Source of the DNA: Belliella pelovolcani | GTDB taxonomy: Bacteria > Bacteroidota > Bacteroidia > Cytophagales > Cyclobacteriaceae | NCBI RefSeq assembly: GCF_900156785.1 | Contig: NZ_FTOP01000001.1 | Coordinates: forward strand, 310,001-374,000 | Direction: 5' to 3' | Length of the DNA stretch: 64,000 nucleotides | Shown: positions 51,629 through 52,986 of the stretch, one piece after another | Position numbering within the stretch: the first letter of the stretch is position 1 | How the letters are laid out: each line of letters starts with the position of its first letter | The notes under the pieces: model-generated | Seen by the model: the letters and a program-made list of their open reading frames with translations, nothing else | The model's database searches: none | Told to the model about the DNA's origin: nothing | Translations under genes and position numbers: made by a program

Positions 51629-51682
51629 TAGGCCAAATATTTAGAATATAATCGAAAAATTAGGCCTAATTTTTCGATTATA
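51629..51682. repeat. Upstream repeat and 36-bp palindrome of the DUF4143 cassette
   Basis: A 38-bp unit (51629-51666) of the form GGCC-A-AATATTTAGAATATAATCG-AAAAATTA-GGCC, with its GGCC blocks 32 bp apart. Its right half continues into a mirror copy, so 51647-51682 is a perfect 36-bp palindrome centred on TAGGCCTA with arms running out through TTTTTCGATTATA. It lies 41 bases before the ATPase start codon. Confidence 0.9.
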
Positions 51683-51723
51683 AATTTTTTCTTCTATATT
51701 CGAAGTGACTAAAATATACGAAT

Positions 51724-52854
51724 ATGCTAAGAAGGGATCTAATGGAAAGTATCATCAAAAGTTGCTTTCATGGAAAAATCATCCTTCTCTTTGGTGCCCG
51801 TCAAGTTGGCAAAACCACACTTTTGCAAGAATTGGTATGCCAGTTGAACCTGCCAACTTCTTGGCTAAATGCAGATGAATCCGATGTGTTCGAAGCTTTC
51901 AACAATGCCACCACTAGCACTCAACTGCTACAATTGATTGGTCAAAACAATAAATTAGTGGTCATCGATGAAGCTCAACAGATACCTGAAATTGGGAAAA
52001 AACTCAAACTGATATTTGATAGCAAAGCGGATATTCAGGTCATAGCTACAGGTTCTTCGGCATTTGAACTGCAGAACCAAACAGCAGAACCACTTACAGG
52101 AAGAAAAAAAAGCTATCATCTTTATCCCATCAGTTATAAGGAAATTGTAGCCAATAGCTCAATCTTGGAAGCCAAGCGTCTATTGGATACACGCTTGGTG
52201 TATGGCTCCTACCCAGATGTGGTTAATAATCCTGGCAGAGAAAAGGAAATATTGGTAGAAATTGCCCAAAGTTACCTTTACAAGGATGTTTTACAAGTTG
52301 ATAATATTAGGAAACCAAGTCATATAGACAAATTGCTTAAAGCTTTGGCTTTCCAGGTTGGAAGTGAAGTCAGCTATCACGAACTCGCACAAACCATAGG
52401 TAACATTGATACTGCAACAGTTGAAAAATACTTAGATCTTTTGGAGAAAGCTTTCGTCATTTTCAAACTACCGGCATTCAGCAGAAATCTGAGAAATGAA
52501 ATTAAAAAGGGCAAGAAATATTATTTCTATGATAATGGGATTCGAAACGTATTGATCAGCAATTTCTCCCAACCTGAAATGCGCTTGGATAAAGGCGCAC
52601 TCTGGGAAAACTTCTTGATTTCAGAAAGGATGAAAATCAATAATTATCAAGGAAGGTTTGTCAACTCTTATTTTTGGAGAACACATGATAGGGCAGAGAT
52701 TGATTACATTGAAGAGATTGACGGAATCCTCCATGCTTATGAATTTAAATGGAAAGAGCAAAAAGTCAGGTTTCCAGCGTCTTTTCTGACTACCTACCCT
52801 GAAAACGAAACCGTTTTGGTCAACAGATCCAATTTTGAACAATTTCTCTTATAA
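51724..52854 (+). CDS. AAA_14 / DUF4143 ATP-binding protein
   Basis: 376 residues. Walker A LLFGARQVGKTTLLQ (about 24-38), Walker B VVIDEAQQIPEIG and sensor IQVIATGSSAFEL form an AAA core. Residues about 200-376 are the DUF4143 half: YYFYDNGIRNVLI, GALWENFLISE, and AEIDYIEEIDGILHAYEFKWK. The last contains Asp327 and Glu340-x-Lys342, the layout of a PD-(D/E)xK nuclease-fold site. Function of the family is unknown. Bracketed by matching repeats, like a cassette between the ars operon and a TonB receptor gene. Confidence 0.9.
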   Translation: MLRRDLMESIIKSCFHGKIILLFGARQVGKTTLLQELVCQLNLPTSWLNADESDVFEAFNNATTSTQLLQLIGQNNKLVVIDEAQQIPEIGKKLKLIFDSKADIQVIATGSSAFELQNQTAEPLTGRKKSYHLYPISYKEIVANSSILEAKRLLDTRLVYGSYPDVVNNPGREKEILVEIAQSYLYKDVLQVDNIRKPSHIDKLLKALAFQVGSEVSYHELAQTIGNIDTATVEKYLDLLEKAFVIFKLPAFSRNLRNEIKKGKKYYFYDNGIRNVLISNFSQPEMRLDKGALWENFLISERMKINNYQGRFVNSYFWRTHDRAEIDYIEEIDGILHAYEFKWKEQKVRFPASFLTTYPENETVLVNRSNFEQFLL

Positions 52855-52859
52855 AAAGG

Positions 52860-52892
52860 AACTTTTCCAAACTTCAAAACTTTGGAAAAGTT
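52860..52892 (+). terminator. Hairpin after the DUF4143 gene
   Basis: Perfect 12-bp stem AACTTTTCCAAA / TTTGGAAAAGTT, 9-base loop, starting five bases after the stop codon. No T-run follows, so termination efficiency is uncertain. Confidence 0.6.
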
Positions 52893-52910
52893 AAATCTCT
52901 TAAAAAAAAA

Positions 52911-52979
52911 TGCCTAATATTTCAAACGTATTCTAAAAATCAGGCCGAATATTTAGAATATAATCGAAAAATTCGGCCT
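52911..52979. repeat. Downstream tandem repeats of the DUF4143 cassette
   Basis: Two units with exactly 32-bp period, marked by GCC at 52912, 52944 and 52976. The right unit (52942-52979) is nearly identical to the unit upstream of the gene: GGCC-G-AATATTTAGAATATAATCG-AAAAATTC-GGCC. The left unit is diverged (AATATTTCAAACGTATTCTAAAAATCA). Confidence 0.88.
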
Positions 52980-52986
52980 GATTTTC

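Follow-up and report, generated by a model that had tools for sequence, protein, structure and literature searches.

Autoregulated toxin-antitoxin operons encode a DNA-binding product that acts on palindromes in their own promoter, and paralogues of such operons in one genome keep separate operators. Orc1 binds repeated origin sites, and the genes of REP/RAYT and other repeat-associated transposases are flanked by palindromic repeats. RptR, the repressor of a restriction-modification defence island, binds three direct repeats in its promoter (PMC12255303). PDC-S01, an ATPase fused to a PD-(D/E)XK domain, is a candidate defence system and the fourth most common across prokaryotes; for most such candidate systems, experimental validation is pending (PMC12988326).

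The analyzed window is a 64,000-nucleotide stretch of the Belliella pelovolcani genome. It contains an AAA_14-DUF4143 ATPase-nuclease gene (PADLOC PDC-S01) at 51724..52854 on the + strand, which encodes 376 aa. The protein matches the PADLOC profile PDLC04789 over its full length (residues 1-375, E=2.5e-161) and exceeds the curated Pfam cut-offs for PF13635 and PF13173. The Pfam domains found in it were AAA and DUF4143 only, with no transposase domain. In the AlphaFold2 model (mean pLDDT 95.6), the chain comprises an AAA+ domain, a helical part, a winged helix-turn-helix and a C-terminal alpha/beta domain. The AAA+ domain (residues 1-135, 51724..52128, +) contains the Walker A motif GARQVGKT (24-31) and the Walker B motif VVIDEAQ. 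The predicted winged helix-turn-helix spans residues about 196-252 (52309..52479, +), and the feature annotated within it as the predicted recognition helix covers residues 229-242 (52408..52449, +). At the C-terminus, a PD-(D/E)XK-like nuclease domain (residues 271-376, 52534..52851, +) carries E325, D327 and E340-x-K342.

Sequence searches of solved structures with the window protein returned no homologue. Structural comparison of the AAA+/winged-helix part gave SSO1545, RuvB and DNA-bound Cdc6/Orc1 as best matches, and the fold search with the nuclease domain weakly returned Cdn1/Can2/Card1, McrC, RecU and Hjc (best E about 0.01). E325, D327, E340 and K342 are invariant or nearly so in the two sets of relatives compared, of 29 and 62 sequences. 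The original prediction, made from the DNA letters of the window, had described an AAA core and a nuclease-fold-like C-terminal half (Asp327, Glu340-x-Lys342); the AAA core was confirmed, and the residues named for the C-terminal half are among the conserved ones. The conservation of these residues and of the Walker motifs suggests that the ATPase and the nuclease are both kept functional.

Near-identical repeat units lie on either side of the gene, as that prediction had described. A 26-bp core, AATATTTAGAATATAATCGAAAAATT, occurs exactly at both 51636-51661 and 52948-52973, and 100 shuffles of the window yielded no such pair. The upstream array, a putative operator (51629..51682, no strand assigned), consists of palindromic units with CGAWT half-sites and a period of 32 bp. 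Within it, two dyad centres alternate at a distance of 16 bp, so the half-sites alternate in orientation. The perfect 36-bp palindrome that had been claimed, TATAATCGAAAAATTAGG/CCTAATTTTTCGATTATA, is present at 51647..51682 (no strand assigned). The consensus of the Bacteroidota -7 box is TAnnTTTG, and a putative box with one mismatch to it, TATATTCG, lies at 51695..51702 (+), 29 bp upstream of the ATG. The end of the array, at -42, precedes this box by 12 bp. The positions of both the array relative to the ATG and the putative box agree with those in relatives.

On the other side of the gene, a terminator-like hairpin, AACTTTTCCAAACTTCAAAACTTTGGAAAAGTT, lies at 52860..52892, and a similar hairpin is also found 3' of orthologues. 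It is followed by a diverged extra repeat unit with 64% identity and a 32-bp step (52912..52941), which had likewise been predicted along with the period, and by the downstream copy of the array unit (52936..52985), located at the 3' end of a convergent TonB-dependent receptor gene; none of these three features was assigned a strand. Between 51629 and 52985, the upstream and downstream copies are 1312 bp apart, which is exactly 41 x 32 bp and places them in register. This spacing may be due to chance, at about 1 in 32.

To place the upstream array in its family, DUF4143 genes were collected from relatives and from the phylum, and the 200 bp before each start were scored. A rule fixed the gene starts, the remaining genes in these regions and shuffled sequences served as controls, and direct repeats were called at z>4. 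Direct repeats preceded 33 of 72 DUF4143 genes versus 17 of 394 neighbours (p=1.7e-18), and inverted repeats preceded 36 of 72 versus 20 of 394. Named genomes from several phyla made up a second set, which replicated these results: 27/85 DUF4143 genes versus 25/450 others for direct repeats and 33/85 versus 29/450 for inverted repeats. Overall, repeats were found upstream of 32-50% of DUF4143 genes and of 4-6% of neighbouring genes. The original prediction had tied the repeats to the gene family, and for the upstream arrays this association held in both sets. For about half of the DUF4143 genes, no array passed the threshold; this group pools wrongly placed starts, lone short palindromes and true absence.

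The repeats are phased. The lag was 32-34 bp in 20 of the 33 genes of the first set and 22-23 bp in seven, and it was 32 or 33 bp in 24 of the 27 genes of the second set; the lags of control genes were scattered. Successive dyad centres within an array are 16 bp apart, so that half-sites alternate in orientation. The -7 box marks the end of the array or lies just beyond it, and the array reached the -33/-7 promoter region in 17 of the 20 loci with a TAnnTTTG box, with overlap counted by hand. Plasmid-borne relatives in Treponema, Moraxella and Runella have palindromes that end at or near the start codon. One DUF4143 subfamily (L102, L133 and L053) has long arrays with a step of 22 bp, or two helical turns, instead of 32 bp; in L133, AATTCAAAATTGAAGTTGTGTA is repeated many times over.

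Fic genes failed as a clean negative control, as promoter palindromes or repeats preceded 12 of 30 of them (PF02661, L390-L419). They also preceded 16 of 30 ATPase_2 genes (PF01637, L420-L449). Among the ATPase_2 genes, for example, L433 has ATTACGTAAATTGCGTTACGTAATTTACGTAAT just before the start codon, and L429 has a 54-bp repeat there. The pattern is therefore not unique to the DUF4143 family. This weakens the case for uniqueness, yet it fits autoregulation, and stand-alone or one-gene modules with DNA-binding domains may commonly have private operators.

Each array is private to its gene. The window genome carries 11 DUF4143 genes with 11 distinct upstream sequences, of which some, not all, have a clear array by repeat score. 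When the 110 bp before each gene were searched against this genome, they matched their own locus only (E<0.005), besides the second copy in the window; one marginal 21-bp match fell outside the own loci. Similarly, the inner 16-mer of AATATTTAGAATATAATCGAAAAATT, allowing up to 1 mismatch, occurs in the 4.1-Mb genome only at its two places in the window. A scattered REP-like repeat family is ruled out by this uniqueness, and in the window genome the repeats are not dispersed apart from the gene.

The array also follows the protein. We compared upstream similarity with protein identity for 176 distinct genes, using the 99th percentile of shuffled scores as the cut-off. The share of upstream pairs above it was 1.5% at <25% protein identity, 14% at 50-55%, 38% at 60-70% and 90% at 70-80%. 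An array can be common to different genera: L059 and Pedobacter borealis L210, whose proteins are 62% identical, align over 67 bp up to the start codon. Based on this rise with protein identity and the sharing across genera, the array follows the protein and not the host. A site for a host factor, as the main reading, is ruled out by this behaviour and by the 11 distinct upstream sequences in one genome.

We then evaluated which part of the protein varies with the array, correlating protein columns with array similarity among 93 clade members after removal of overall identity. The top three columns were D229, A231 and K235, at the start of the predicted recognition helix (230-242), and the best 8-residue window started at 229. 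D229 ranked first of all columns with a family-wise p=0.003, and A231 and K235 were significant only singly. Partial correlations by domain singled out no domain, being about 0.07 for the AAA, helical and winged-helix parts alike.

Among D229 proteins, the half-site is predicted by residue 231: K occurs with GGA[AT]T, E, Q or A with CGA[AT]T, and N with GGTGA. This code fits 35 of 38 called genes, for which the half-site classes had been chosen by eye after viewing the data. The rule was therefore frozen before it was applied to 57 new genes. Out of sample, the rule held in 13 of 15 callable cases (permutation p=0.00075). It failed for two of the three A231 genes, so that agreement for A231 was 1/3. 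On a tree built without the helix, the residue class and the half-site class changed together on 8 branches, versus 1.75 expected (p=1.1e-5), and shared ancestry alone is thus insufficient to account for the code. Together, these covariation data indicate that the protein's own predicted recognition helix reads the array and determines the half-site. By eye, S229/N231 proteins (SKNT) mostly had TGAC/GTCA half-sites, and N229 proteins with I or M at 231 tended to have GGTCA-like half-sites (L366, L373, L378, L380-L384, L387). These two groups are apparent further classes of the code.

Based on the abovementioned comparisons of sequence and predicted structure, we consider it probable (roughly 0.7) that the gene is a one-gene, self-regulating AAA+/winged-helix/PD-(D/E)XK-like module with a private operator array. 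The winged helix would bind half-sites whose orientation alternates every 16 bp, with like-oriented sites 32 bp, or about three helical turns, apart. As the array lies just upstream of the promoter and overlaps it, the protein would control transcription of its own gene, most likely by repression, and the position of the array fits activation as well. Paralogues would read different arrays, so many copies could coexist in a genome without cross-talk. As in autoregulatory winged-helix repressors, palindromic sites lie in the gene's own promoter and, judging by covariation, the recognition helix determines the site. Two elements of the original prediction, an autoregulated module and an ATPase that binds DNA at recognition repeats of its own, are well supported at the level of sequence. 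We infer physical binding of the array, repression and a role for ATP; that the nuclease serves defence is our guess.

A broader form of this model is possible, if doubtful. DUF4143 ATPases may represent a huge set of one-gene modules with diversifying protein-array pairs, in which the array, with its phasing of two or three helical turns, would serve as operator and as assembly platform alike. Occupancy of the array would keep the nuclease off until disturbed by an invader. If the platform reading is true, the helix code would be a natural library of orthogonal AAA+/DNA pairs.

The original prediction favoured a self-contained cassette with matched ends, possibly a mobile unit. In this explanation, the end arrays would be the ends of an element moved by the ATPase-nuclease, or array, gene and array would be gained or lost together by homologous recombination. 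We compared congeneric genomes at the locus between the arsenite transporter and the TonB-dependent receptor gene (the TonB locus). The ATPase gene is present there in G000, G002, G004 and G005 and absent from G001, G003, G006 and G007. G001 reads X-array-TonB and G005 reads X-array-gene-terminator-array-TonB; the flank X is the same, and the alleles differ by the gene and one array copy. A shorter array is kept without the gene in G007 and G003, and only a scar in G006. A second locus follows a Y-family polymerase gene; it has a paralogue with array in G000, G006 and G007 and orphan arrays in G001 (L196, G001:C10:76745) and G003 (L197, G003:C1:259668). In other genera, the gene occupies different contexts, and in one case, G027, an array again lies on either side of it. 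Finally, 544 plasmid records contain a relative of the protein, many of them in Acinetobacter, Rhizobium, Agrobacterium and Moraxella (hits H1-H30).

These observations speak for the mobile cassette, but bracketing by arrays is not general. Among orthologues with at least 75% identity, all nine genomes have the upstream array and only four (G000, G004, G005 and G027) have a close downstream array; in G002, the downstream array is about 2 kb away. Sequence shared by the upstream and downstream sides was found for 9 of 72 DUF4143 genes, in part from unrelated duplications, and bracketing is ruled out as a family rule by these two counts. Neither a transposase nor a target-site duplication was seen. 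Moreover, the right half of the G001 array matches the right-hand array of G002, so the G001 array could equally be a deletion product between two arrays. Recombination between arrays, in the direction of gain or loss alike, would explain the alleles of the TonB locus. Of the predicted bracketed cassette, the gene-specific upstream array stands and the downstream copy is the exception; a mobile unit between repeats does not hold as a general account, and we regard the mobile cassette as unlikely. Congeners do have arrays without the gene, but across the seven congeneric genomes that were searched, arrays of this type were confined to the neighbourhood of DUF4143 genes and to the TonB and second loci, at both of which the gene is present in other congeners. 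Some DUF4143 genes are broken or fragmentary, with stops or cut frames: L051 (G025), G025:C89:98727-99053 and G029:C77:7591-8481; of these, L051 has 32-bp repeats downstream.

Beyond its operator role, the array could serve a defence or addiction device as assembly platform, on which the AAA+ protein would assemble in phase and be held inactive; when array binding is lost during infection, the nuclease would be freed or activated. The strict two- or three-turn phasing of arrays of 2-4 units, the conserved ATPase and nuclease residues and the listing of PDC-S01 as a candidate defence system speak for such a device. However, arrays without the gene are tolerated at the TonB and second loci, the gene's patchy distribution shows no hint of addiction, and a plain operator explains all of the data with fewer assumptions. 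We consider this explanation improbable.

The downstream copy itself has a plain reading. On either strand, its unit can fold into a strong hairpin (-23.4 and -26.3 kcal/mol, z about -7), with the T-rich ends and stable G+C stem that characterize the sequence of a Rho-independent terminator, and it sits between two convergent genes. It thus looks like a bidirectional terminator, and it may be a secondary array that came to serve as one between these genes. This hairpin, and the array found at the TonB gene in congeners that lack the ATPase gene, might suggest that the repeats are only terminators, or a generic intergenic repeat with no relation to the protein. We consider this very improbable, and for the upstream arrays it is already contradicted by their promoter position, their gene specificity, their passage with the protein from genus to genus and their covariation with the recognition helix.

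For the self-regulating module, the private promoter array and the residue-level code between helix and half-site make the family testable with respect to the DNA that is bound, how the protein is kept quiet and what releases it. A very common, uncharacterised ATPase-nuclease family thereby gains a concrete handle on its control and offers many apparently orthogonal protein-operator pairs. As arrays occur at loci without the gene, they also provide a sequence signature for such gene-less loci. In the open-access literature searched, DUF4143 itself is very rarely mentioned, and no published account of DUF4143 arrays was found.

With respect to known systems, REP/RAYT elements share a gene with palindromic repeats on its flanks and differ in that the gene described here has no transposase domain and its repeats are not dispersed through the genome. 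An AAA+ domain followed by a winged helix is likewise seen in Cdc6/Orc1 and other AAA+/winged-helix DNA binders (2qby, 2fna), but here the array lies in a promoter instead of an origin, a nuclease-like domain is added and sequence identity is low (13-16%). Toxin-antitoxin operons resemble the module in their own-promoter palindromes, here with predicted binding, and in a separate operator for each paralogue; here, in contrast, there is one gene with AAA+ and nuclease domains, no separate antitoxin, and arrays phased at 22 or 32 bp. RptR represses its own promoter via three direct repeats, with a palindrome as the minimal site (PMC12255303), but it is a small stand-alone repressor, whereas here the predicted reader is within an ATPase-nuclease whose paralogues have their own arrays. 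PDC-S01 of PADLOC (AAA_14-DUF4143 / COG1373 ATPases) is the same kind of protein, with a full-length match to PDLC04789 and the ATPase-PD-(D/E)XK fusion, and it differs in that the literature searched describes no DNA arrays, autoregulation or winged helix for it.
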